From Rhodocytophaga rosea (GTDB taxonomy: Bacteria > Bacteroidota > Bacteroidia > Cytophagales > 172606-1), in NCBI RefSeq assembly GCF_010119975.1, contig NZ_CP048222.1, forward strand, positions 2,501,501 through 2,565,500: DNA of 64,000 nucleotides. The letters run 5' to 3'. Below, one piece after another: positions 1-19,562 of the stretch. Positions within the stretch are counted from its first letter, which is position 1. Each line of letters begins with the position of its first letter. The position numbers and the translations under genes are program-made. Under the pieces are notes generated by a model. That model was not told the DNA's origin, did not search any database, and saw only the letters and a list, made by a program, of their open reading frames with translations.

Positions 1-1767
1 ATATATGCTTATGTACAGCTGGCCAAACAGGCTGACCCCAAAAAAGTAGAAGAAAAACTCCCGGCTATGCTGGAAAAATACCGGGGAAAAGCACACCTGG
101 ATAAATTGACTTTGCAGCCCCTCAGCAACATTCATCTATATTCAGACCTGGATTATGAAGCCGAAATAAACGAAAACGGAACTACCGTGAAAATACTGGC
201 TGTAGTTGCATTGCTGCTTGCCCTGATTGCCTGGATTAATTTCATCAATCTTTCTACGGCCAGGGCGATGGTACGGGCCAAAGAAGTGGGTATCCGCAAG
301 GTGATTGGCTCCGGAAGGACTGAATTGATTAAACAATTTATTCTGGAAGCCCTTCTCCTCAACTGCATCAGTGCCATTTTTGCCATTACCATTGCTCAAC
401 TTTCGCTGCCACTGATTCAGGATTTTACCGGATGGGAATTACCAAAAGTATCTTTAATAGTTATGTTACGCTCACCAGTGTATGGCATCCAGTATCCGTT
501 TGTACTTCTGTTTATCCTGGGAAGTTTTCTTTCTGCACTGTATCCGGCATTTGTTTTATCTGCTTATTCGCCCATGCAAGTGTTAAAAGGGCAGTTTAAA
601 AATTCTGTGCAGGGGATATTACTGCGTAAAAGCCTGGTCGTTTTTCAATTCGCAGCTTCTGTTTTACTAATTGCGGCTACCATGGCTGTTTATCAGCAGC
701 TTTCCTACATGTTGAATGAAAACCTGGGTGTAAACATTGAAAAAACCCTGGTTATAGATGCTCCCAGCATTCATGAGGAAGGAGATAGGTATGCAGAGCA
801 GCTACAGATATTCAGAAACGAGTTGTTGCAAAACCCTTCCATTACCGGTTTTTCAGTCAGCAGCGATGTGCCCGGAAAACCCATTGGCTCCTCCAGAGGA
901 GGGGTAAAACGGGCGAATGCCGGCGAATTTGTGGGCAATCGTTATAATATAGCCTGGGTAGATGAATTCTATTTTCCACAATATGAGATCACCTTTCTGG
1001 CTGGCAGAAATTTCTCTCAAAACTTCTCTACTGATAAAAGCGAAGGCATCATACTCAATGAAACTGCCTGCCGCCAGTTAGGTTTTGCAAATCCACAAGC
1101 TGCGGTAGGTGAATATATTTTTGTTAACTGGCAGGACAAAAAGCAGGTGATTGGTGTAATTAAAGATTATCATCAGCATTTTCTGAAAGAGGCCCTCGAT
1201 CCGGTTTTGTATGAGTATGCCAAAAGAAGCCGCAATTATTTCTCCATTAAAATAAATGCATCCAACTTTTCCGAAACGATAGGACAAGTGCAACAGAAGT
1301 ATACCAGTACCTTTGCCGAAAATCCATTCAACTATTTCTTTCTGGATGCTTTTTATGATACACAATATAAATCAGACCGGCAGTTTCTGAAAATATTTGG
1401 TTTGTTTGCCAGCTTAGCCATTGCGGTTGCCTGTTTGGGTTTATTCGGATTAGCTTCGTTTACCATGGCCCAGCGGACGAAAGAAGTAGGGGTACGCAAA
1501 GTACTGGGAGCTTCAGTGAACGATATTGTACTGCTGCTCAGTAAAGATTTCATTCGTCTGGTACTGGTAGCATCATTCATTGCATGGCCTTTGGTGTACT
1601 GGGGCATCCATAGCTGGTTAAATAATTACGCCTTCCGGATCGGAATAAGTGCCTGGTTCTTAATTTTACCGGCGATACTATTGCTTCTGATAGCCCTGAC
1701 TACAATAAGTCTGCAAACCCTACAAGCCGCCAGAGCTAATCCGGTGAAATCGCTACGATATGAATAA
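1..1767 (+). CDS. FtsX/MacB-type ABC permease, 5' end outside window
   Basis: Partial gene: the frame is open from base 1, so the true start lies upstream and 588 residues are visible. An internal ATG at 67 is not the start. The visible part holds the end of the first periplasmic domain, an FtsX block of membrane helices with the family hallmark AKEVGIRKVIG (codons near 275-310), a second MacB-like periplasmic domain and a second FtsX block with TKEVGVRKVLGAS (near 1480-1515). It ends in NPVKSLRYE, as do its downstream paralogues. Two-module proteins of this kind are orphan inner-membrane permeases of the FtsX/MacB superfamily. They are thought to couple a partner ATPase to periplasmic work; substrate unknown. 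First of five tandem paralogues. Confidence 0.9.
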   Translation: MYAYVQLAKQADPKKVEEKLPAMLEKYRGKAHLDKLTLQPLSNIHLYSDLDYEAEINENGTTVKILAVVALLLALIAWINFINLSTARAMVRAKEVGIRKVIGSGRTELIKQFILEALLLNCISAIFAITIAQLSLPLIQDFTGWELPKVSLIVMLRSPVYGIQYPFVLLFILGSFLSALYPAFVLSAYSPMQVLKGQFKNSVQGILLRKSLVVFQFAASVLLIAATMAVYQQLSYMLNENLGVNIEKTLVIDAPSIHEEGDRYAEQLQIFRNELLQNPSITGFSVSSDVPGKPIGSSRGGVKRANAGEFVGNRYNIAWVDEFYFPQYEITFLAGRNFSQNFSTDKSEGIILNETACRQLGFANPQAAVGEYIFVNWQDKKQVIGVIKDYHQHFLKEALDPVLYEYAKRSRNYFSIKINASNFSETIGQVQQKYTSTFAENPFNYFFLDAFYDTQYKSDRQFLKIFGLFASLAIAVACLGLFGLASFTMAQRTKEVGVRKVLGASVNDIVLLLSKDFIRLVLVASFIAWPLVYWGIHSWLNNYAFRIGISAWFLILPAILLLLIALTTISLQTLQAARANPVKSLRYE

Positions 1768-1832: not shown

Positions 1833-4262
1833 ATGCTACGCAACTATCTACTTACAGCTTACCGGAATTTAAAACGGCAAAAGGCTTTTTCGGCAATTAA
1901 TATTCTGGGTCTGGGGGTGGGCATGGCTGCGTTTTTACTTATTCTGCAATATATCCGCCATGAGCTGAGTTACGATAGGTTCCACGAAAAGGGAGAAAGA
2001 ATATACCGGGTAGGCACCAGTTTTTATAAGGAAGGAGTACCTACAGAGTATGCCACTACTTTTCTTGGATTGGGGCCAGCTATGAAAGCAGATTTCCCGG
2101 AAATAAGTGAGTTTACCCGCTTGTGTTTCCGCAGAGGGGTTGTGTCTTACAAAGCAGGGACATTTACTGAAGAGAACCTGTATTTCGCTGATCCAGGCTT
2201 TCTCCAGATGTTCTCATTCCGTATGCAACCCGGAAGCACTGCTACTTTGAAAGCACCCAATGAAGTGATTATTTCCCAATCGGCAGCCAGGAAGTATTTT
2301 GGTCAGGAAAATCCCTTAGGAAAAGTAATGAAGCTGAAAAGTAGATTGTTTGAGCAAGATGTAACCGTAAGAGGAGTATTTGCCGATTTACCTACTAACT
2401 CTCACCTTCGCATAGATTTTTTGGCTTCTGTTCAGACTTTGGTAAGCCACCTGGGAAATGAACGCCTCAATGGATGGGACAGCATAGATCATTACACGTA
2501 TGTTCTCTTGCGTGAAGAAGCCTATGTGCAAAACTTAAACGCTAAATTTCCGGCATTTCTTGATAAATATCTGGGTACACTCTGGGGAGAAAGTGGAGTT
2601 GGGCTAGGCCAGAACCGGATAGGATTTGTGCTAACGCCTTTATTAAACATTCACCTGCATTCCAGACTGCAGGATGAGGCTGAAACAAATGGTGATATTG
2701 CCATCGTACGCTTGTTAATGCTGATTGCCGCTTTTATTTTGCTGCTGGCTTGTATCAACTATATTAATTTATCTACGGCCAGGGCAATGGAACGGGCCAA
2801 AGAAGTAGCGGTAAGAAAAGTAATTGGCGCCAGCCGCCTGCAGATAATCAGGCAATTCTTCCTGGAATCGCTGCTGCTCAATTTAGTAGGTATCATACTG
2901 GCATTTACCCTAGCGCAAGTAGCCAGTCCCTGGATAAACAGTCTGTCTGGGAAAGCCTTTTATGTATTCAACTGGCAGGATACTACTTTATGGTTCTCTC
3001 TGGTAAGTATCTTCATTGCAACTACGTTTCTATCAGGAATATATCCGGCTTTTATACTGTCTTCTTTTAGGCCAGTAGTGGCTTTAAAAGGAAAAGTTCA
3101 TGCTACTACTGAAGTGTTCTCCTTCAGAAAAATGCTCATTGTACTTCAGTTCGTAGTGGCCATTCTACTGGTAAGCGGAACCTATGCGGTGTACAAGCAA
3201 ATGCAGTTTATGCAGGAATATAATTTAGGCATGAATATCGATCAATTGCTGGTTGTAAAAGCTCCACTGTTGAGAGAAGCCGATTCTGTATTTAGTCAGA
3301 AAGCAGAGGTTTTCAAACATCAACTCCTGTCACAAGCCAACATTAACAAAGTTACGGTTTCTTCCTCCGTACCCAATACTGGTATGTATGGCACCATTGG
3401 AGCAGTAGGCAGATTAGGTACGAAACCGGAAAATGAAGACTTTAGGTTTCACCATATCTATGCAGATACCGATTTTATTTCTACCTATGGTCTGCAAGTT
3501 CTGGCTGGCAGAAGTTTTTCGAAAGATCTGTCTACAGATAAAAACAATCTGATTCTAAGTGAAAGAGCCATACAAATACTGGGCTTTCAAAGTCCGGAGG
3601 CAGCCGTAAACCAGCGGATTCAGTATGAGGGGGAGAAAACCATCATAGGCGTAATCAAAGATTTTCATCAGTATTCGGTAGCCAAAGAAGTGATTCCCAT
3701 TATTCTGGAACTACGCACCAACGACCGGAAGTTTTTCTCAGCCAAAGTAAATACCAGTAAACTCACGCAGACCATCGCTTCCGTACAGGAATCTTACGAA
3801 AAATTATATCCGGGCAGTCCGTTTGAGTATTTCTTTATGGATGAGCATTTTGCCAGCCAGTACGAAGCCGATAAACGGTTCGGGCAGGTATTCAGTGTGT
3901 TTTCAGGCATGGCAATTTTTATTGCCTGCCTCGGCTTATTTGGCTTGGTTTCCTATACTACTATTCAGCGAGGTAAAGAAATAGGCGTGAGAAAAGTGCT
4001 GGGGGCTACCCTAACTTCCTTATTACTGCTGCTGTCCAGAGACTTTATGAAGCTGGTAGTACTGGCACTTGTGATTGCCTGCCCGGTGGCATACTGGAGT
4101 ATCCAGCAATGGCTCTCCGGGTATGCCAGTCACACACCTATTGCCTTAGATTTCTTTCTCATACCAGGTATCTCTGTGCTGCTGATTGCTTTCTTCACCA
4201 TCAGTTACCAGACAATTAAATCAGCCAGGGAAAATCCGGTGAAAGCTTTGAGAAATGAATAA
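1833..4262 (+). CDS. Two-module FtsX/MacB-type ABC permease
   Basis: 809 residues, full length. It starts with MLRNYLLTAYRNLKRQK, a short cytoplasmic leader shared by the whole array, then a first transmembrane helix (about residues 20-42), a MacB-like periplasmic domain (about 45-285), three helices with the hallmark AKEVAVRKVIGAS (about 322-335), a second helix and periplasmic domain (about 430-680), and a final FtsX block with KEIGVRKVLGAT. A conserved FEYFFMDEHF motif just before the last membrane block is found in all five copies. No ATP-binding domain is present and none is encoded beside it. It lies 65 bases after the preceding permease and may be cotranscribed. Substrate cannot be told from sequence. 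Confidence 0.92.
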   Translation: MLRNYLLTAYRNLKRQKAFSAINILGLGVGMAAFLLILQYIRHELSYDRFHEKGERIYRVGTSFYKEGVPTEYATTFLGLGPAMKADFPEISEFTRLCFRRGVVSYKAGTFTEENLYFADPGFLQMFSFRMQPGSTATLKAPNEVIISQSAARKYFGQENPLGKVMKLKSRLFEQDVTVRGVFADLPTNSHLRIDFLASVQTLVSHLGNERLNGWDSIDHYTYVLLREEAYVQNLNAKFPAFLDKYLGTLWGESGVGLGQNRIGFVLTPLLNIHLHSRLQDEAETNGDIAIVRLLMLIAAFILLLACINYINLSTARAMERAKEVAVRKVIGASRLQIIRQFFLESLLLNLVGIILAFTLAQVASPWINSLSGKAFYVFNWQDTTLWFSLVSIFIATTFLSGIYPAFILSSFRPVVALKGKVHATTEVFSFRKMLIVLQFVVAILLVSGTYAVYKQMQFMQEYNLGMNIDQLLVVKAPLLREADSVFSQKAEVFKHQLLSQANINKVTVSSSVPNTGMYGTIGAVGRLGTKPENEDFRFHHIYADTDFISTYGLQVLAGRSFSKDLSTDKNNLILSERAIQILGFQSPEAAVNQRIQYEGEKTIIGVIKDFHQYSVAKEVIPIILELRTNDRKFFSAKVNTSKLTQTIASVQESYEKLYPGSPFEYFFMDEHFASQYEADKRFGQVFSVFSGMAIFIACLGLFGLVSYTTIQRGKEIGVRKVLGATLTSLLLLLSRDFMKLVVLALVIACPVAYWSIQQWLSGYASHTPIALDFFLIPGISVLLIAFFTISYQTIKSARENPVKALRNE

Positions 4263-4426: not shown

Positions 4427-7150
4427 ATGCTCCGCAACTATCTCACCATCGCTTACCGCAACCTTACCAAGCACAAAGCTTTCTCTTTCACCAACAGCCT
4501 GGGCTTAGCCGTAGGCATGGCCGCCTGTTTACTGGTATTACAGTATGTTGTTTTTGAGTTCAGCTATGATAGCTTTCATACCCAGGCAGACCATATTTAC
4601 CGCCTGGCTGGCCGTCGTTTTGTAGCCGGACAATTAGATGGGGAAAGTGCCCAAAGCTACCATGCTGCCGGACCTACTTTGCAGAAAGAAGTGCCGGGAA
4701 TTTCACAATTTACCAGACTGCGAAGCTGGTACGGCAATACCATGGTGAGCCATATAGCCGGACAGCAAACTACCATGTTTCAGCCGGTTGTTATCCGTAC
4801 CAAACAATTTACTGACTCCACATCGGTATTGCTTGCCGGAAATTTCAATGGGTGGAATCCGAATGAAAATCCTATGCAACGTGAAGGCAATGAATGGGTG
4901 GCCCGGCTCAATCTCGTTCCAGGCAAATACAGCTATAAGTTTGTAGTAAACGGAAACTGGGTGAACGATAAGGATAATCCGCTGGTGGATACTACTGACA
5001 ATAACAATTCCCTGTTTTTTGTAGCAGAAACCGAAAATTATAAAAAAGCGGCGCAAACATTTAGGGAAGTATCTTTTAAGGAAGATGGTATTTACTTCGC
5101 AGATGCCACCTTTTTTAATGTGTTTACTTTTCCATTGATCAAAGGAAATCCGAAAACAGCCCTGCACGAATCGAATTCGGTAGTAATCTCTGAATCAATC
5201 GCCCGCAAGCATTTCGGCAGTGAAGACCCGATGGGCAAACTGATCAGCTTCCGGCAAAATGATAATGCCCAGCCTAAACTGATTACCGGCGTTTTCAAAG
5301 ATGTACCTGCCAATTCTCATTTGCAATTCAATTTCCTGCTTTCGTACCGTTCGCTGGGCAGCGACTTAGATATGAACTGGCAGTGGTTTCAAACCTACAC
5401 CTACGTAGTATTGGCGCCTGGCGTAAAACCTGCAGAAGTAGAGGCAAACTTTCCGGCTATTATTGACAAATACAGAGGTCCTGCACTACAGGCTGACAAT
5501 GCCAAAGAAGAATTATTTCTGCAGCCCCTTCAACAAATACACTTATACTCCGATCTTAAGCGCGAAATTGGGGTAAACAATTCTATTACCACCATTTATT
5601 TTCTCCTCATCATTGCAACATTCATCCTGATACTGGCCTGGGTGAATTACATCAATTTATCTACCGCCCGTTCCATTGAAAGAGCCAAGGAGGTAGGCAT
5701 ACGCAAAGTGGTAGGTGCCAGCCGTTCTCAACTAATAGGCCAGTTTATGGCAGAATCCCTGGTATTGAATGTACTGGCAGCCGTATTTGCCATGACACTC
5801 GTGCAGGTGGCTCTCCCCTATTTTAACGATTTTACCGGACAGCAAATGCCTTTAACCTTATGGAAAGAGTCTACTTTCTGGCTGTTATTTATTGGCTTAT
5901 TTATGGCAGGAACACTCTTTTCTGGTTTATATCCGGCCTTTGCCCTTTCCTCTTTTCAGCCGGTTTCGGTAGTAAAAGGAAAATGGCGGAGTTCTGCCAG
6001 TGGTATTATGCTGCGGAAAAGCCTGGTGGTATTCCAGTTTGTGATTTCGGTACTGCTGATTACCGGCACTTTTACCGTATACCGCCAGATCGATTTCATG
6101 CAAAACCAGGATCTGGGGATCAATATTGATCAGATTATGGTAGTAAAATCACCGTTTATTGTCAACAATAAGCAGTTTAGCCAGAAGTTTGATGTATTCC
6201 GTAACCAGGTACTGCAATACCCCAATGTAAGGCATTTTGCCTCTACGGATGTCGTGCCAGGCATGGAAGATATGTATTCCGATAATGGCATCAAACGGGA
6301 AGGTAGTGAAGACATCAGCCTATCTATGTTTAGCCTGATCTGGGCCGATTATGATTTTATTTCTACGTATGGTATCAAATTACTCGCCGGACGGGCATTC
6401 TCTAAAGACTTCAGCACTGACAAGGAAGGCGCTATTATCAACGAAGCAGCAGCAAAAGCCCTGGGATTTGCAAGCGCGCAGGAAGCGGTGAATAATAACA
6501 TTATGTATGGAAAAGATAATAAATACAAGGTAGTCGGCGTAATAAATAACTATCACCAGAAAACCTTGAAAAGCGATTATGTACCAATGATTTTTCTGCT
6601 GAATCCCCAAGATGGCCGCTGTTACTCCATTAAAATAGAGGCGAAAGATGCAGGAAATACAGTGGCAGCCATTGAAAAAGCTTATCAATCGGTGTTTCCC
6701 GGAAATCCTTTCGAGTACTTTTTTCTGGATGAATTTTTCGATTCCCAGTATAAAACTGACCGGCATTTCCGTCGCATATTTACTTTGTTTGCAACGCTTG
6801 CCATATTTGTGGCCTGCCTGGGTTTACTCGGACTGGCTTCCTTTGCTACCGTTCAGCGCACTAAAGAGATTGGTATCCGCAAAATACTCGGAGCCTCCGT
6901 GAATCAAATTATTTACCTGCTTTCCAAAGATTTTCTGGGACTGGTATTACTGGCCAACCTGATTGCCTGGCCTTTGGCGTACTGGGCCATGTATGAATGG
7001 CTTTCAACCTATGCATTCCGCATTAACATTAATCCCTGGCTGTTTATCATTCCAAGTATTCTGGTGTTTGTAATTGCCCTGCTGACGGTGAGCCTGCAAA
7101 CGATTAAATCTGCCAAATCGAATCCGGTCAAAAGCCTGCGGTATGAATAA
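4427..7150 (+). CDS. Two-module FtsX/MacB-type permease with inserted CBM48-like domain
   Basis: 907 residues, about 97 longer than its four paralogues. The extra length sits in the first periplasmic domain, about residues 122-203. It contains LLAGNFNGWNPNENPM, then a GKYSYKFVVNGNW segment and DNPLVDTTDNNNS. These are signatures of the CBM48/AMPK glycogen-binding beta-sandwich (FNGW...M, Y.YKF.VDG.W..D..NP). The remainder is the usual pattern: leader MLRNYLTIAYRN, helix 20-42, periplasmic domain, FtsX block with AKEVGIRKVVGAS, second periplasmic domain, FEYFFLDEFF, and the last FtsX block with KEIGIRKILGAS. The reading frame is intact on both sides, so this is a real domain insertion. Inference: the protein may sense or bind a glycan in the periplasm; the domain could also serve only protein contacts. 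Confidence 0.92.
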   Translation: MLRNYLTIAYRNLTKHKAFSFTNSLGLAVGMAACLLVLQYVVFEFSYDSFHTQADHIYRLAGRRFVAGQLDGESAQSYHAAGPTLQKEVPGISQFTRLRSWYGNTMVSHIAGQQTTMFQPVVIRTKQFTDSTSVLLAGNFNGWNPNENPMQREGNEWVARLNLVPGKYSYKFVVNGNWVNDKDNPLVDTTDNNNSLFFVAETENYKKAAQTFREVSFKEDGIYFADATFFNVFTFPLIKGNPKTALHESNSVVISESIARKHFGSEDPMGKLISFRQNDNAQPKLITGVFKDVPANSHLQFNFLLSYRSLGSDLDMNWQWFQTYTYVVLAPGVKPAEVEANFPAIIDKYRGPALQADNAKEELFLQPLQQIHLYSDLKREIGVNNSITTIYFLLIIATFILILAWVNYINLSTARSIERAKEVGIRKVVGASRSQLIGQFMAESLVLNVLAAVFAMTLVQVALPYFNDFTGQQMPLTLWKESTFWLLFIGLFMAGTLFSGLYPAFALSSFQPVSVVKGKWRSSASGIMLRKSLVVFQFVISVLLITGTFTVYRQIDFMQNQDLGINIDQIMVVKSPFIVNNKQFSQKFDVFRNQVLQYPNVRHFASTDVVPGMEDMYSDNGIKREGSEDISLSMFSLIWADYDFISTYGIKLLAGRAFSKDFSTDKEGAIINEAAAKALGFASAQEAVNNNIMYGKDNKYKVVGVINNYHQKTLKSDYVPMIFLLNPQDGRCYSIKIEAKDAGNTVAAIEKAYQSVFPGNPFEYFFLDEFFDSQYKTDRHFRRIFTLFATLAIFVACLGLLGLASFATVQRTKEIGIRKILGASVNQIIYLLSKDFLGLVLLANLIAWPLAYWAMYEWLSTYAFRININPWLFIIPSILVFVIALLTVSLQTIKSAKSNPVKSLRYE

Positions 7151-7329: not shown

Positions 7330-9762
7330 ATGCTTCGTAATTACCTCACTATCGCCTACCGGAATTTGCTCCGGCATAAAGTATTTTCGCTGCTCAATAT
7401 TTCCGGACTGGCTATTGGCATGTCGGCTTGTTTGCTCATTCTGCAATATGTGAGTGTTGAAATGAGTTTCGATGATTTTCATACAAAAGGAGATAGAATT
7501 TACCGGGTTCGTTTTGATGAAAGCCATAATGGCGTAGTTGGCCATAGCAGTGCAGGCAGTTCGCCCGGCGTAGGTCCGGCAATGAAACGGGAATTTCCGG
7601 AAGTGGAAGAAATAGTACGCCTGTGCGACATGGATCACTGGAATTACATTTTCACTTACAAAGACCTGGTACTCTCACAAAAGAATGTATTCATGGCAGA
7701 TGCGACTTTCTTTAACATGTTTTCCTACAAACTGATTTCTGGTAATCCCCAAACGGCCTTAACTTCTCCCAGGCATATGGTACTTAGCGAGTCTACGGCT
7801 AAAAAATATTTCAGAGGCGAAAATGCGCTGGGCAAACAAATGATGGTATATACTAATCAGGGCAAGGGGCTTTATACAATCAGCGGTGTTATGGAAGATA
7901 TGCCGGCCAATTCGCACCTGGACTGTAAAGTATTACTCTCCTACTCTACCCTGGTTACACTAGACAAAGGCGCCCAAACCAGCTGGAACTGGAATGCTTT
8001 TTTAACCTATGTATTGCTCAAACCCGGCGTAGAAAAGCTGAATGTTGAAAATAAGTTTCCTGGCCTGATACAAACTTATAAAGGCGAAGCATTAGCCGGA
8101 ACCAACGTAAGCTGGCAATTATCTTTGCAAGCCCTGAAAGATATTCACCTGTTTTCTAACCTGAAATTTGAAGCGAAACCCAATGGAAATTATACGTCTG
8201 TGTATCTGCTTGCCGGAATTGCTGTGATCATCCTCATTATCGCCTGGGCCAATTACATTAATATGACCACAGCCAAAGCCATGGAAAGAGCCAAAGAAGT
8301 CGGTATCCGGAAAGTGATTGGTTCACACAGAAATCAACTCATGCTGCAATTTTTGACTGAGTCATTTTTGCTCAACGCAGCAGCGTTAATTATTGCTTTA
8401 TCTCTGGTGCAAGTCTTGCAGCCTCTATTTGGCCAGCTGACCGGGCAAAAGATGTTCACCCTGGCATATTCTTATTCCTTCTGGACAGGTTTACTGCTGT
8501 TACTCATGGTGGGCAGTGTACTTTCAGGCCTGTATCCGGCTTTTATATTGTCTTCCTTCCGGCCAATTACGGTACTTAAAGGGAACATAGCCAGAACTCG
8601 GCAGGGGATTTATTTGCGAAAAAGCCTGGTTATTGTACAGTTTACCTTATCTGTATTACTCATATCTGGCACACTAGCGATTTACAGGCAATTGCAATAT
8701 ATGCAGCAGGTAGATCTGGGTCTGAACCTGGATCAGGTATTGGTGTTTAAAAGCCAGAATGTATTTCCGAAAGATACTGATCTGGTACAATCCACCAGAA
8801 CACTCAAAGAATTATTGCAGAAACATTCATCCATACAAGCAGTTACTACCTCGAGCAGTATTCCTGGGGAAGCTATTACCTGGGCGACCAACGATTTCCG
8901 CCGGGCAGGAACAGCTTTTACACAGGCGAATGATTTCTCGGTGATGAGCGCCGATCATGATTTTGCCCGTACCTTGGATCTGCAATTACTGGCTGGACGG
9001 TTCTTTTCCCCTACTATTGCTACAAACCAGGAATCTGTTGTCATTAACGAAGCGGCCTTACAAGCATTTGGATTTACTTCTCCCCAGCAAGCACTAAATG
9101 AAGTGATTATTTCTGATGATTTCCAGTTTAAGCACCGCATTATTGGAGTCGTAAAAAACTTCCACCAGCAATCCCTGCAGAACCGGCACCGTCCCCTGAT
9201 CTTTACTTATCAGGAAGTATGGTTTAATAATTATTATGAGGTAAAACTAAATGCTGCTGATCTGCAAGAAACCATTGCCTATATTAAAACTCAGTTTGAG
9301 AGGGTATTTCCAGGCAATCCTTTCGATTACTTTTTCCTCGACGATTTCTTCAACCAGCAATACCAGGCCGACAGGCAATTTGGAAAAGTGTTCAGCTTGT
9401 TTTCAAGTCTGGCGATTTTTGTGGCCTGCCTGGGTTTATTAGGCTTAGCTTCTTTTGCCACACTGCAACGGACCAAAGAAATCGGTGTACGCAAAGTATT
9501 AGGTGCTTCGGTTTCAAATATTGTAATCCTGCTTTCCAGAGAGTTTATCGGGCTGATTCTGGTCGCTAACCTGATTGCATGGCCTCTGGCTTATTGGGGA
9601 ATTAGTCTTTGGCTGGAGAATTACGCTTTCCATATTACACCTAGTGTCTGGTTGCTGCTGCTGCCTAGTGTTCTGGTATGTGCCATTGCTTTGTTTACAG
9701 TAAGTATTCAAACTATAAAAGCCGCCCAAACCAATCCAGTGAGAAGCCTGCGCTATGAATAG
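7330..9762 (+). CDS. Two-module FtsX/MacB-type ABC permease
   Basis: 810 residues with the common array architecture: leader MLRNYLTIAYRNLLRHK, helix at about 20-42, MacB-like periplasmic domain, FtsX block with AKEVGIRKVIGSHR (about 325-338), second periplasmic domain, FDYFFLDDFFNQQY, and the final FtsX block with KEIGVRKVLGAS. It ends in NPVRSLRYE. It has no carbohydrate-binding insertion, unlike the gene upstream. It follows that gene by 179 bases, a spacer containing an inverted repeat, so it may have its own transcript. Role: orphan inner-membrane permease; cargo unknown. Confidence 0.92.
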   Translation: MLRNYLTIAYRNLLRHKVFSLLNISGLAIGMSACLLILQYVSVEMSFDDFHTKGDRIYRVRFDESHNGVVGHSSAGSSPGVGPAMKREFPEVEEIVRLCDMDHWNYIFTYKDLVLSQKNVFMADATFFNMFSYKLISGNPQTALTSPRHMVLSESTAKKYFRGENALGKQMMVYTNQGKGLYTISGVMEDMPANSHLDCKVLLSYSTLVTLDKGAQTSWNWNAFLTYVLLKPGVEKLNVENKFPGLIQTYKGEALAGTNVSWQLSLQALKDIHLFSNLKFEAKPNGNYTSVYLLAGIAVIILIIAWANYINMTTAKAMERAKEVGIRKVIGSHRNQLMLQFLTESFLLNAAALIIALSLVQVLQPLFGQLTGQKMFTLAYSYSFWTGLLLLLMVGSVLSGLYPAFILSSFRPITVLKGNIARTRQGIYLRKSLVIVQFTLSVLLISGTLAIYRQLQYMQQVDLGLNLDQVLVFKSQNVFPKDTDLVQSTRTLKELLQKHSSIQAVTTSSSIPGEAITWATNDFRRAGTAFTQANDFSVMSADHDFARTLDLQLLAGRFFSPTIATNQESVVINEAALQAFGFTSPQQALNEVIISDDFQFKHRIIGVVKNFHQQSLQNRHRPLIFTYQEVWFNNYYEVKLNAADLQETIAYIKTQFERVFPGNPFDYFFLDDFFNQQYQADRQFGKVFSLFSSLAIFVACLGLLGLASFATLQRTKEIGVRKVLGASVSNIVILLSREFIGLILVANLIAWPLAYWGISLWLENYAFHITPSVWLLLLPSVLVCAIALFTVSIQTIKAAQTNPVRSLRYE

Positions 9763-10122: not shown

Positions 10123-12558
10123 ATGATACACAACTACCTTATTATCGCCTGGAGAAATATACGCAAGAATAAAGTTTTTTCCTTTATCAATATGATGGGT
10201 CTGGCCATCGGTATGGCGGCCTGCCTTCTGATTCTGGAATACATCATATTTGAAACCAGCTATGACCAGTTCCATAGCAAAGGCGGCCAGATTTACCGGG
10301 TGATCACCCAGCCGGAAGAAAGCGAAACCTATGTAGCCACTGCCAATGCTCCCCTGGGACCTTCGCTCAAAGCAGAATTTCCGGAAGTGGCCAACTATAC
10401 CCGTTTTTTGTATACTGGAGGCGTAGTAACCATCACACAGCATCAAACCGGAAAATTAGCTTCGTACCACGAGGATAAACTAGCGTATGTAGATTCAACT
10501 TTCCTGGACATGTTTTCTTATTCGCTTGCAGCAAATACAGGAACAGGTGTGCTGCAACAACCAAATATGGCCGTACTTTCTCAGGCTTTTGCAAAAAAAT
10601 ACTTTGGTTCTGTTCAAGCCACTGGTAAAGTAATTACGCTGTATGATCAGTTTGGCAAGCATGAATGTACAGTTACTGGCGTTCTATCCAACATCCCACA
10701 AAATTCACATTTGCAGTTTGATGCCTTGTTTTCGATGGCTACCCTGAGCAAAACTGACCAGTTCTGGGCAAAGCTGGATAACTGGAACTGGACGTCCTTT
10801 TACACCTATGTACAATTAGCCAATAATGCCATTCCCCAGCAAATGGCTAATAAATTTCCGGCACTCATTCAAAAATATGGCGGCTCCGAAAAAAGCAAAC
10901 TTGCCTTACAACGCATGCCTGGTATACACCTCTACTCTGATCTGCAAGCGGAAGCTTCAACCAACGGAAACATAAAACTAGTCTATTTCCTTACGACCAT
11001 CGCCTTTTTCATCTTACTCATCGCCTGGATCAATTATATCAATCTCTCTACGGCAAGAGCCATCGACCGGGCCAAAGAAGTAGGCATACGCAAGGTTTCC
11101 GGCTCTACACAATGGCAGCTCATAATCCAGTTTATGTATGAGGCTTTGTTTTTAAATATTATAGCCATTATTTTATCCCTCACCATCGTTCAATTATCTC
11201 AGCCGCTGTTTAATGAGCTAACAGGTAAGCCGCTTACTATTCTGCTGTTGCGTACTCATTTTGTTTGGGCTGCGATACTCCTTATTTTTATGGCAGGCGC
11301 AGGTGTATCAGGTTTATATCCGGCCTTTATATTATCTTCTTTCAGGCCGGCAGTTGTACTAAAAGGCCGGTTAACAGGAAGTTTCAAAGGTGCTTTTCTC
11401 CGGAAATCACTGGTTACTTTTCAATTTGCTGCTTCTGTAGCTCTAATCATTGGCACGTTTACGGTTTACAGCCAGCTGGATTATATGCGCAACAAAGACC
11501 TGGGCATGAATATTTCGCATCTATTGGTGATCAAAGCGCCAGTGATCCAGGGCGAAGAACTGAAATTTGTTGAGAATGTAGAGGTATATAAAAATGACAT
11601 GAAGCAATATCCGGCTGTACAAGCCATCACAGCTTCTCAAACGATTCCGGGAATTGGATATAACTGGTATTCCAGTGGTTTCAGAAGGCAGAGTGATCCG
11701 GAAAATCCTGCCAATAAGTACAATGTGTTTTATATCAACAACGACTTTCTGGAAACGTACCAGATACAACTGTTGGCTGGCCGTAATTTTTCGCCTGCCA
11801 GAAATACAGATGGAGCGGATAAAGAAGTTATTATTAACCAGACGGCCTTAAAGCAATTAGGTTTTGCTTCGAATCAAGATGCCATTAACCAGTATTTGTA
11901 TAATGGCGAAAATAAAGAAGGCCGGATTGTGGGCGTAGTACAGGATTATCACCACGAATCGCTGAAGACTAACCTGGAAGCCATTATTATTTTCCCCAGT
12001 AACTGGGCTAATTATTTTACCCTACGAATCAACAGTAGTGATACACCTGCTCAAACCCTTGCTGAGGTAATTTCCAAAGCCAAGCAAAAATATGACGTAC
12101 TTTTTCCGGGCAATCCATTCGAATATTTCTTTTTAGATGAGTTTTTTAACCAGAAATACCAGACTGACCAGCAATTTGGTAAAGTATTCAGCTTGTTTGC
12201 CGCTTTGGCTATACTAGTAGCTTGTCTGGGTTTATTTGGATTAGCTTCGTTTACTATTTCGCAACGCACCAAAGAAATTGGGATTCGAAAGGTGTTAGGT
12301 GCTTCAGTTTCCAGCATTCTTATTCTGCTCTCCAAGGATTTCGTCCGGCTGGTTTTACTGGCTAATGTAATTGCCTGGCCTCTGGCATACATGGGAATGC
12401 ACTGGTGGCTGCAAAATTATCCCTTCCGCATCGGATTAAGCTGGTGGTTATTTATCATACCAGCACTATTTATTCTATGCATTGCCCTGCTTACCATCAG
12501 CCTGCAAACCATCCGTACAGCCAGATCGAATCCTATTCAATCCCTTCGCTATGAATGA
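10123..12558 (+). CDS. Two-module FtsX/MacB-type ABC permease
   Basis: 811 residues, last of the tandem set. The start MIHNYLIIAWRNIRKNK matches the leader of its paralogues. Then come helix about 20-42, periplasmic domain, FtsX block with AKEVGIRKVSGST (about 322-334), a second periplasmic domain, FEYFFLDEFFNQKY and a final FtsX block with KEIGIRKVLGAS; it ends NPIQSLRYE. Differences in the leader and in the periplasmic domains suggest it is an older copy than its neighbours. No ATPase or membrane-fusion protein gene is adjacent. A small lipoprotein gene starts 19 bases after its stop and may be cotranscribed. Confidence 0.92.
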   Translation: MIHNYLIIAWRNIRKNKVFSFINMMGLAIGMAACLLILEYIIFETSYDQFHSKGGQIYRVITQPEESETYVATANAPLGPSLKAEFPEVANYTRFLYTGGVVTITQHQTGKLASYHEDKLAYVDSTFLDMFSYSLAANTGTGVLQQPNMAVLSQAFAKKYFGSVQATGKVITLYDQFGKHECTVTGVLSNIPQNSHLQFDALFSMATLSKTDQFWAKLDNWNWTSFYTYVQLANNAIPQQMANKFPALIQKYGGSEKSKLALQRMPGIHLYSDLQAEASTNGNIKLVYFLTTIAFFILLIAWINYINLSTARAIDRAKEVGIRKVSGSTQWQLIIQFMYEALFLNIIAIILSLTIVQLSQPLFNELTGKPLTILLLRTHFVWAAILLIFMAGAGVSGLYPAFILSSFRPAVVLKGRLTGSFKGAFLRKSLVTFQFAASVALIIGTFTVYSQLDYMRNKDLGMNISHLLVIKAPVIQGEELKFVENVEVYKNDMKQYPAVQAITASQTIPGIGYNWYSSGFRRQSDPENPANKYNVFYINNDFLETYQIQLLAGRNFSPARNTDGADKEVIINQTALKQLGFASNQDAINQYLYNGENKEGRIVGVVQDYHHESLKTNLEAIIIFPSNWANYFTLRINSSDTPAQTLAEVISKAKQKYDVLFPGNPFEYFFLDEFFNQKYQTDQQFGKVFSLFAALAILVACLGLFGLASFTISQRTKEIGIRKVLGASVSSILILLSKDFVRLVLLANVIAWPLAYMGMHWWLQNYPFRIGLSWWLFIIPALFILCIALLTISLQTIRTARSNPIQSLRYE

Positions 12559-17490: not shown

Positions 17491-17587
17491 CCCTCCTAAT
17501 AAGGAGGGCCAGGGAGGTGTATTAGCTGATTGCATTTTGAAATTTTTGTAAACAACACACCCCTCTGGCTCCCCTTGTTAGGGGAGA
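17491..17587. repeat. Imperfect long inverted repeat downstream of hslU
   Basis: The left arm around 17491-17520 (CCTCCTAATAAGGAGGGCC then AGGGAGGTGT) is imperfectly complementary to the right arm around 17555-17587 (ACACCCCTCTGGCTCCCC then TTGTTAGGGG). Each arm also contains a smaller palindrome (CCCTCC..GGAGGG and CCCCTTGTTAGGGG). Such nested palindromes are a common dispersed element type in Bacteroidota genomes and may be non-autonomous mobile elements. It could fold as a 3' end structure for hslU, although no T-run follows. Confidence 0.6.
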
Positions 17588-17629
17588 ATTTACCTTTACC
17601 AAACATAGCTTTTCTGATAAAAACTTCAC

Positions 17630-18571
17630 ATGCATCCAAATAAAGTATTAGATATATTAATGGGATTATGTGTAGGGGATGCATTGGGCGTACCGGTAGA
17701 ATTTAAAAGCAGAAGTGTTTTGACAGCGAATCCGGTAACCGGCATGCAGGGCTATGGTACCCACAATCAGCCTGCCGGAACCTGGTCAGATGACAGTTCA
17801 CTGGCTCTATGTCTGGCTGAAAGTTTATGTAATGGATACAATCTGAATAATATCGCTTATACAATGGTAAGATGGTATACTCAGAATCATTGGACAGCGC
17901 ATGGAAAAGTATTTGATATAGGTGGTACTACCTATCGTGCAATACAAAGGTTAAAGAATGATGAAAGTCCGCTGTATTCCGGAGATTTCGAAGAGGATTC
18001 CAATGGAAATGGTTCGCTGATGCGTATCCTACCTTTGGCTTTTTACTTAATAAATAAACCTATTGAAGAACGATATCAAACAGTAAAAGAAGTTTCATCT
18101 GTTACTCATGCACACTTTCGATCTATCATATGCTGTTTTATTTATATTGAATATGCCATACTGCTTTTGAAAGGTCTGGATAAAAAAGAAGCATATAAGC
18201 AGATGCAAGAGTCAGTAAATAGTTTCATTAAGATTTCCTATTCTGAAAGGAAACGCTTTGATAGAATTCTCCTCCATAATATTGAATCTTATTTTCCTGC
18301 TGAAATCAGCGGAAGTGGCTATGTAATCCATACCCTGGAAGCTTCGCTCTGGTGTTTCCTTACAACAGATTCTTACACAGATGCTGTGTTGAAAGCAGTA
18401 AATCTGGGAGAAGATACAGATACAACCGGTTGCGTAACTGGTGGTCTGGCAGGTTTATATTATGGGCTGGAAGCTATACCCAAAGAATGGACCGAAGTAA
18501 TTGCCAGAAAAGACGATATACTTACACTTGCAAATAAACTTGATCAGAAATACAGTGCACAGGCAGAATAA
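17630..18571 (+). CDS. ADP-ribosylglycohydrolase (DraG family)
   Basis: 313 residues, full length for the family. GLCVGDALGVPVEF (12-25) begins the all-helical DraG fold. TWSDDSS (51-57) and GEDTDTTG (260-267) are the two conserved clusters whose Thr and Asp residues bind the paired magnesium ions. NGNGSLMRILPLAF matches the central substrate region. These enzymes remove ADP-ribose from modified proteins or nucleic acids, or hydrolyse free ADP-ribose derivatives. No ADP-ribosyltransferase or dinitrogenase reductase gene is nearby, so the target is unknown. It converges on the following methyltransferase gene with only 10 bases between the stops. Confidence 0.93.
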   Translation: MHPNKVLDILMGLCVGDALGVPVEFKSRSVLTANPVTGMQGYGTHNQPAGTWSDDSSLALCLAESLCNGYNLNNIAYTMVRWYTQNHWTAHGKVFDIGGTTYRAIQRLKNDESPLYSGDFEEDSNGNGSLMRILPLAFYLINKPIEERYQTVKEVSSVTHAHFRSIICCFIYIEYAILLLKGLDKKEAYKQMQESVNSFIKISYSERKRFDRILLHNIESYFPAEISGSGYVIHTLEASLWCFLTTDSYTDAVLKAVNLGEDTDTTGCVTGGLAGLYYGLEAIPKEWTEVIARKDDILTLANKLDQKYSAQAE

Positions 18572-18581
18572 GCAGAAGAAA

Positions 18582-19226
18582 TCACTTCTTCCTTACTATC
18601 ATCAGTCCATCCCGAACAGGCAATAATATATTTTCTACCCGTTCGTCTTGCTGAACTGCAGCATTAAAGGCAAGAATGGCATAAGTCTCGGCATCGCCTT
18701 TTTTAATGGTATCGGCTACCACTTTTCCGCTCCAGAGTACATTATCGGCAATAATAATTCCTCCGGGCCTTATCTTATTCAATACCATATCGTAATACCG
18801 CTGGTAATTTATCTTGTCGGCATCAATAAACACCATATCGAACATTATATCTAAGGAGGGAATAATATCCAGGGCGTTGCCTATCCGGTATTCTATCTGA
18901 TGGGTGGCACCGGCTTTAGCAAAATATTGCCTTACTCTTGATTCCAGTTCTTCATTGATATCAATGGTATATACCTTTCCACCTTCCTGCAAGCCTTCAG
19001 CCAGGCACAAAGCAGAATAACCGGTATAGGTACCTATTTCCAGTACATTCATGGGCCGCATCATATGCGAAAATAAAGATAGTAGCCGTCCCTGCAAATG
19101 ACCAGATAACATACGGGGTTTGAGTACATGGGCATGGGTATCACGGTTCAGTTCTTGCAATACTGGCGGCTCAGAAGAAGTATGTTCTTCTACGTATTGG
19201 TTAAGTGCAGCACTTAAAAATTCCAT
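18582..19226 (-). CDS. SAM-dependent O-methyltransferase (COMT-like)
   Basis: 214 residues from ATG 19226 (MEFLSAALNQYVEEHT). The longer frame up to 19361 is basic, runs into a repeat, and is unlikely to be translated. Motifs: SAM-binding VLEIGTYTGYSALCLAEGL, acidic strand VYTIDINEE, and metal-binding FIDADKINYQRYYD followed by GGIIIADNVLWSGKV. These are typical of the small class I, metal-dependent catechol/caffeoyl-CoA O-methyltransferase family found across bacteria. The small-molecule substrate is unknown. It stands alone on the minus strand. Confidence 0.92.
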   Translation of the reverse strand: MEFLSAALNQYVEEHTSSEPPVLQELNRDTHAHVLKPRMLSGHLQGRLLSLFSHMMRPMNVLEIGTYTGYSALCLAEGLQEGGKVYTIDINEELESRVRQYFAKAGATHQIEYRIGNALDIIPSLDIMFDMVFIDADKINYQRYYDMVLNKIRPGGIIIADNVLWSGKVVADTIKKGDAETYAILAFNAAVQQDERVENILLPVRDGLMIVRKK

Positions 19227-19562
19227 AAAAAGCTGTTTAAGAATATGGTTTCTTTCAACTAGTTTGTATGTTGTACTCCTGCGCCGTCCTACTTTTCTTT
19301 TGCATGCCCAAAAGAGGGCAAACATGCGAATGTTTGAGCCAGCCTTGTGCGCGAGTAACAAAAGAAAAAGGCAGCACCAATAGAGACTTTTTTGCGCCAG
19401 ATAAAATCATCGCTCAATTCTCCGGCCTATGCACAAAGCAAAAAAGTCCGCGCTATTGCTGCACCATCCACCGCACTCTTTCAGAGTCTATAAATTTTTT
19501 TTTGAAAGTATAGTGCGTATGATTCTCTCTCAAATACATAATCAAACGCTATATCACTTATT
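19227..19562. repeat. 336-base gap with imperfect inverted repeat, no gene
   Basis: CTTTTCTTTTG (19292-19302) pairs with CAAAAGAAAAAG (19359-19370), one extra base in the second arm. Between them are CATGC and GCATG-like words (19303-19327) that could form an inner stem. ORFs on both strands across this stretch have odd compositions and no family, as expected for a palindromic repeat. A second A/T tract sits near 19495-19505. I read it as a dispersed intergenic repeat plus the promoter region of the methyltransferase gene. Confidence 0.5.

Follow-up and report, generated by a model that had tools for sequence, protein, structure and literature searches.

Animal cells use the AMPK-type carbohydrate-binding module (CBM) for holding glycogen. 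In the AMPK beta subunit this domain (PF16561) forms part of a kinase, and residues W100, K126, W133 and N150 of AMPK-beta1 have been reported as critical for carbohydrate binding (PMC4032982). CBM48-type domains are also carried by exported proteins of Bacteroidota, the CE1 feruloyl/acetyl esterases, in which they are placed N-terminally or between the catalytic domains; in the Dysgonomonas enzymes, the CBM48 packs on its enzyme and is described as having no affinity for the glycans tested, and esterases of xylan loci are named among the carriers (PMC8040265). The CBM48 of a Klebsiella capsule esterase, expressed alone, is reported to have raised biofilm (PMC11556721).

Among long ABC permeases, the type VII system YbbAP-TesA of Escherichia coli has been described as drawing hydrophobic compounds out of the inner membrane and up to a hydrolase held on its periplasmic domains, and both TesA and LolA dock on the periplasmic domains of related permeases (PMC12646458). 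The membrane fold of YbbP is given as 10 helices (12 in one legend), and the accessible sections of the same report contain no mention of carbohydrate (PMC12646458).

The permease analyzed here, P3 of Rhodocytophaga rosea, combines features of both groups. The window (the whole stretch of DNA that was analyzed, 64,000 nucleotides) begins inside a tandem array of long ABC permeases encoded on the + strand (Table 1). When the upstream stretch (L017) was added, the array was found to comprise six permeases, in the order Pm1, P1, P2, P3, P4 and P5. Pm1 lies wholly upstream of the window and the 5′ part of P1 is cut off by the window edge together with most of its first periplasmic domain, so that the window alone cannot tell whether P1 has the insert; the full Pm1 and P1 genes in L017 gave no CBM match by BLAST or profile search. 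P3 is the fourth of the six, and not the third of five, as proposed in the earlier note made from the sequence of the window, whose claim that the other permeases are free of the domain holds for all five of them.

Table 1. Positions in the window of the permease genes of the array and of the CBM features of P3.
Feature	Position	Strand	Remarks	Basis
P1, paralogous permease	1..1767	+	cut at the window edge; full gene CBM-free	BLAST, profile
P2, paralogous permease	1833..4262	+	CBM-free	Pfam, alignment
P3, FtsX/MacB_PCD-type ABC permease with CBM insert	4427..7150	+	907 aa	ORF, Pfam
Whole inserted segment of P3 with linkers	4751..5059	+	about aa 109-211; absent from paralogues	alignments
AMPK1_CBM (PF16561) core of P3	4790..5005	+	aa 122-193	Pfam; PDB sequence match; Foldseek 1z0m, 2f15, 4yee
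Trp143 of P3	4853..4855	+	AMPK-beta1 W100 equivalent	alignment
Lys171 of P3	4937..4939	+	AMPK-beta1 K126 equivalent	alignment
Trp178 of P3	4958..4960	+	AMPK-beta1 W133 equivalent	alignment
Asn194 of P3	5006..5008	+	AMPK-beta1 N150 equivalent	alignment
P4, paralogous permease	7330..9762	+	CBM-free	Pfam, alignment
P5, paralogous permease	10123..12558	+	CBM-free	Pfam, alignment

All five permeases of the window match FtsX and MacB_PCD in Pfam (the truncated P1 stays below the MacB_PCD cut-off), and P3 exceeds the other array permeases (809-820 aa) by about 90-100 residues. Such proteins are numerous in this organism: at least 74 matches to P3 (E ≤ 1e-60; 113 of 177 candidates scored) were recorded in the R. 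rosea genome (G000), and between 10 and 88 per genome in eight genomes of its family. Among 31 of the places with P3-like matches in G000 are one array of six and one of eight. P3 is the only permease frame of this genome, among the loci screened, that also holds a CBM. A search of plasmids for P3-like permeases returned 38 records, every one below 60% identity.

P3 is a MacB/YbbP-like (type VII-like) ABC permease whose membrane part has two FtsX bundles and whose periplasmic part has two core domains. Pfam assigned PF02687 in two stretches and PF12704 in three, and a profile built from 32 permeases matched the periplasmic domain of a Porphyromonas gingivalis permease (3is6, E 5.3e-30) and MacB (5lil, E 5.2e-21) across the periplasmic core. 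An AlphaFold2 model of P3 (mean pLDDT 80.1, pTM 0.69), compared with the PDB, gave YbbAP as the best match (9ge6, E 6.1e-18), followed by MacB, 3is6, LolCDE and BceAB among others. The FtsX membrane domain and the MacB-like periplasmic core, by which the type VII ABC/MacB-FtsX superfamily is recognized, are both present. Two narrower assignments were rejected, since P3 scored below the respective NCBIfam cut-offs: ADOP (TIGR03434; 312 bits versus 622.3) and the darobactin exporter DarB (NF038008; 142.7 bits versus 700).

With YbbAP-TesA, P3 shares the design of one long permease with two periplasmic core domains. It differs in having eight long helices in the model instead of 10, and in the candidate hydrolase encoded in some of the arrays, which is of the PF00144 beta-lactamase family and not TesA-type; P3 was thus not assigned to this system, having neither the 10-helix fold nor a TesA-type partner. 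The ATPase may be another difference: among the ORFs of at least 150 aa in the array and next to it, inspection identified neither an ABC ATPase gene, which may lie elsewhere in the genome, nor an obvious glycan-degrading gene. Arrays in two other genomes, G176 and G293, do have an ABC ATPase gene, as judged by eye. Mapping of the TesA-contacting residues of YbbP onto P3 was abandoned, because the alignment in that region was too weak for use.

The inserted block of P3 is a complete AMPK-beta/CBM48-type domain. AMPK1_CBM (PF16561) was matched with E 6.9e-13 (49.0 bits, cut-off 26.8) and, within it, CBM_48 (PF02922) on aa 131-181 with E 1.9e-5 (25.3 bits, cut-off 22.4); neither family was found by Pfam in the truncated P1 or in P2, P4 and P5. 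When only the block was searched against PDB sequences, the CBMs of AMPK beta-2 (E 3.2e-11) and beta-1 headed the 24 sequences obtained with E of at most 1. The domain modelled separately (39 rows) reached a pLDDT of 88.6, and its top Foldseek matches were again AMPK-beta CBMs (1z0m, 2f15, 4yee and 4yef, the last two being glucosyl-cyclodextrin complexes), with a TM-score of 0.85 (normalized to 1z0m_B) and an rmsd of 2.2 against 1z0m_B. Profile search, predicted fold and the four ligand residues therefore agree with the CBM48/AMPK-like identity proposed in the earlier note, and the motifs it had cited (FNGWNP, YKFVVNGNW and DNP) are all present in the frame and at the place it had named. Misassembly or a chance motif was rejected as an explanation, since the profile E-values lie far below chance and the same fusion occurs in six other genomes.

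Alignment with the paralogues, the check suggested in the earlier note, showed the block to be absent from them; the extra segment is confirmed, and its size is some 100 residues instead of the 80 estimated. Profile and predicted fold agree that it interrupts an otherwise intact FtsX/MacB-type permease. Unlike P3, both 3is6 and MacB 5lil are continuous through the matching point, shortly before the conserved stretch IYFADATFFNVF (P3 letters), which, together with the CBM-free paralogues, fits a domain gain. In the P3 model, short strands flank the insert at aa 106-109 and 222-225, so the insertion site is probably a hairpin turn. The CBM block, which is less confident in this full model (10-residue means 51-85; few aligned rows there), sits between the first and second of the eight long membrane helices; from this placement, we infer that it faces the periplasm. 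The domain thus resembles its AMPK beta counterpart in sequence, fold and the equivalents of W100, K126, W133 and N150, and differs from it in being located inside a membrane permease, probably in the periplasm, and not in a kinase subunit.

The distribution of the fusion was examined in overlapping draws of genomes from the order (390), the class (395) and the phylum (395), with at most 12 candidates scored per genome. CBM matches were obtained in 71 genomes of the order (E ≤ 1e-6), 55 of the class (1e-8) and 76 of the phylum (1e-10). Frames holding both CBM and permease were then sought in 216 loci (190 with a CBM frame) and in a further, partly overlapping set of 94 (L165-L258). They were detected only in four members of the Rhodocytophaga family and in G993 and G1001, in a screen whose scope excluded G827 and G804 (phylum matches with frames >700 aa) and many matches in shorter frames, so that absence from it is not proof. 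The four family members (of eight genomes) are R. rosea, Rhodocytophaga aerolata of the same genus, whose CBM permease is 72% identical to P3, G002 and G006. In a second Bacteroidota family the fusion is present in three of 10 genomes, all of one genus (G993, G1001 and, from a separate search of that family, G1107), which brings the total to seven CBM permeases in two families. The position of the insert is identical in both. Two short patterns searched against a collection of 84,980 species gave 14 loci with three fusions, namely R. aerolata and the Cytophagales MAGs G002 and G006.

In Bacteroidota, Pfam also placed the same CBM on S41 peptidases and on hydrolases of the beta-lactamase family, and inspection by eye added M28-type peptidases and GH13 enzymes as carriers. 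This range of carriers shows that the earlier description of such modules as usually belonging to cytosolic or plastid starch enzymes is too narrow. The S41 peptidases with a C-terminal AMPK1_CBM include L163:9450-10823, assigned by Pfam, and those of L161, L162 and L164, assigned by similarity and by eye. Proteins of approximately 490-500 aa with four tandem AMPK-type CBM matches are encoded in several Bacteroidota genomes (L022, L052, L053, L058, L062 and L064). Another starch-type domain on a peptidase was observed at L217:1729-3009, an S41 peptidase with a SusF/SusE-type domain (PF16411) encoded some 4.6 kb away from the gene for the CBM permease in G993.

All four ligand residues are kept in five of the seven permease CBMs: those of P3, R. 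aerolata, G993 and G1001, taken from the residue table, and that of G1107, read by eye from the sequence. In G002 and G006 the counterparts of W133 and N150 have been lost; canonical glycan binding consequently cannot explain why all members retain the domain. The second Trp is kept in 45 of 48 non-permease CBM rows (some of them duplicates); its loss in two permeases, rare elsewhere, speaks against the idea that glycan binding is why every one of them has the domain. An esterase-type CBM domain of the R. rosea genome (FAE_G000a; esterase label by eye) has none of the four.

In a tree of the permease bodies, from which the insert was left out, P3 and the proteins of R. aerolata and G002 form a clade (100/100), and the CBM tree repeats their branching order, indicating that the fusion was inherited within this group. 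The permease bodies of G006 and of the second family are placed elsewhere. AU tests of the permease bodies against a single clade were marginal: p was 0.0375 for a clade of four rows, in a test that used 25 of 32 rows, and 0.0457 for one of six, and the G006 row was flagged as having an unusual make-up. For the CBM alone a single clade was not rejected (p 0.245). Permeases may well have gained the CBM repeatedly rather than once.

The CBM trees are built on few columns and have weak support. FastTree placed the CBMs of P3, R. aerolata and G002 as sister (0.86) to a larger group including hydrolase and S41 CBMs, and in the IQ-TREE CBM tree the placement of the three was poorly supported. These trees do not support derivation of the permease CBM as a local copy from the CBM hydrolase of the same array, since neither of them groups the permease CBMs within those of the hydrolases. 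A full-length alignment with added CBM fragments was left out, because the fragments, judged from its summary, seemed to be misplaced. Between P3 and its R. aerolata homolog, dN is 0.246 for the CBM and 0.231 for the rest of the same periplasmic domain; synonymous sites are saturated in both, hence dN/dS is given for neither. The whole protein minus the insert has a dN/dS of 0.08 and a dS that exceeds 2.

The R. aerolata array (L109) contains, at 17551-19266, a gene for a serine hydrolase of the beta-lactamase family that carries an AMPK1_CBM at its C terminus (PF00144 E 3.4e-52; PF16561 E 4.9e-14; weak TPR matches below the cut-off). The same kind of CBM hydrolase is encoded between or beside permeases in G176 (L156) and G293 (L157), which belong to one genus of a third family. 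Thus, a CBM serine hydrolase lies within permease arrays at three of the seven such loci examined; the others, in G000, G127, G384 and G345, are away from permeases, and that of R. rosea itself (L153) is near neither the array nor any permease. Hydrolase homologs were collected from 291 genomes of the order, with at most four candidates scored in each, and 12 passed E 1e-90. Permeases were found on both sides (within 1.5 kb) of two of the four homologs with a CBM and of none of the eight without.

In R. aerolata (L109) and G002 (L110) the array with the CBM permease is divergent from genes for a sigma-54-type response regulator (identified by Pfam for L109) and a histidine kinase. R. rosea has kept the regulator (78% identical), and its nearest homolog of the kinase (61%) is encoded elsewhere in the genome. 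In a study of predicted sigma-54 promoters, FtsX-like permeases are mentioned and the permease COG0577 is reported as enriched in Bacteroidia (PMC12316311). Upstream of the permeases, no match to the canonical sigma-54 pattern was obtained even when one mismatch was allowed. The sequence TGGYAYN5TTG occurs in the gap between the NtrC-type regulator and the first permease at L017:9707-9720, L109:9544-9557 and L110:6942-6955, at 131, 133 and 168 bases, respectively, from the first start codon; one more copy in L017 lies inside a permease gene. These sigma-54-like sites are only suggestive, as the looser pattern was picked post hoc after a relaxed scan. In G002, the permease gene that immediately precedes the one with the CBM (L110:7110-9580) is split into two frames of 131 and 649 aa; it may be broken or reflect a sequencing error. 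Upstream of the R. rosea array there are nucleotidyltransferase- and methyltransferase-like genes that by eye resemble surface-sugar genes.

The shared insertion spot in relatives from the second family hints at a transporter by which a sugar polymer of the cell envelope may be gripped or sensed. Because both Trp residues, the Lys and the Asn of the AMPK-beta1 site are all kept, glycan binding by the P3 CBM is likely. The "glycan-sensing" role put forward in the earlier note is a fair conjecture, tempered by the two of seven permeases that have lost two of the four binding residues and by the CE1 esterase CBM48 domains without affinity for the glycans tested (PMC8040265). The domain would still bind an alpha-glucan or a closely similar glucose polymer. 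Binding would then tether the permease, or bring its cargo or a partner enzyme, to the polysaccharide (the least certain step), and ATP-driven movement of the periplasmic domains would thereby act where the glycan is. For this reading, of P3 as a permease whose periplasmic CBM binds an alpha-glucan-like polymer and tethers permease, cargo or partner there, we consider the chances to be about even. In R. aerolata, by analogy with the periplasmic hydrolase TesA and YbbAP, the CBM serine hydrolase of the same array may be a partner fed by the permease; the four of seven CBM hydrolase loci that are not beside permeases count against this.

The chief rival to glycan binding is that the CBM is a structural or protein-docking module which enlarges the periplasmic surface for a partner and has lost its ligand. 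This is rather unlikely, though it would accommodate the two of seven permease CBMs that are without two of the four canonical residues, the esterase CBM48 that packs on its enzyme and bound none of the glycans tested (PMC8040265), and the docking of TesA and LolA on periplasmic domains of related permeases (PMC12646458). P3 and four other permeases keep the four ligand residues, however, unlike FAE_G000a.

It is also conceivable, if quite improbable, that the domain binds a polymer other than an alpha-glucan (an exopolysaccharide, lipopolysaccharide, xylan-like polymer or peptidoglycan), as might be expected from the CBM48 of xylan-locus esterases (PMC8040265), from the biofilm increase caused by the Klebsiella esterase CBM alone (PMC11556721) and from the surface-sugar-like genes noted by eye upstream of the array. 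The best sequence and structure matches are nevertheless the AMPK-beta CBMs, including the glucosyl-cyclodextrin complexes, and the ligand residues are the same. The presence of dozens of paralogues in the genome, with a CBM found in just one, would suit a neutral insert that sits harmlessly in a surface loop of one among many redundant permeases; this explanation is very hard to reconcile with an insert that occupies the same place in three genera from two families, has an intact frame and fold, and shows a dN equal to that of the host domain.

The alpha-glucan reading of P3 can be extended to a broader model, which at present is doubtful. In it, MacB/YbbP-like permeases of Bacteroidota would repeatedly have become glycan-anchored or glycan-gated through an AMPK-type CBM placed at a single site in the first periplasmic domain, and would cooperate on one polysaccharide with periplasmic hydrolases that also bear a CBM: the permease would lift a lipid-linked or membrane-held substrate and hand it over to a hydrolase held at the same glycan.

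Both the permease type and the binding module are known; no published description of their combination, which occurs here in two families, was found in the open-licence PMC literature (domain databases may list the architecture), and a literature search returned no paper dealing, by title, with the cargo of the long Bacteroidetes permeases. These permeases are very numerous in the family of Rhodocytophaga, and a ligand site built into one of them gives direct access to the question of what at least some of these proteins contact. Should the CBM bind glycan, P3 would be a permease of type VII-like design that has a carbohydrate-recognition domain of its own, a kind of protein that we did not find described, and the link to CBM hydrolases would suggest a permease-hydrolase module, similar to YbbAP-TesA, that operates on a polysaccharide.
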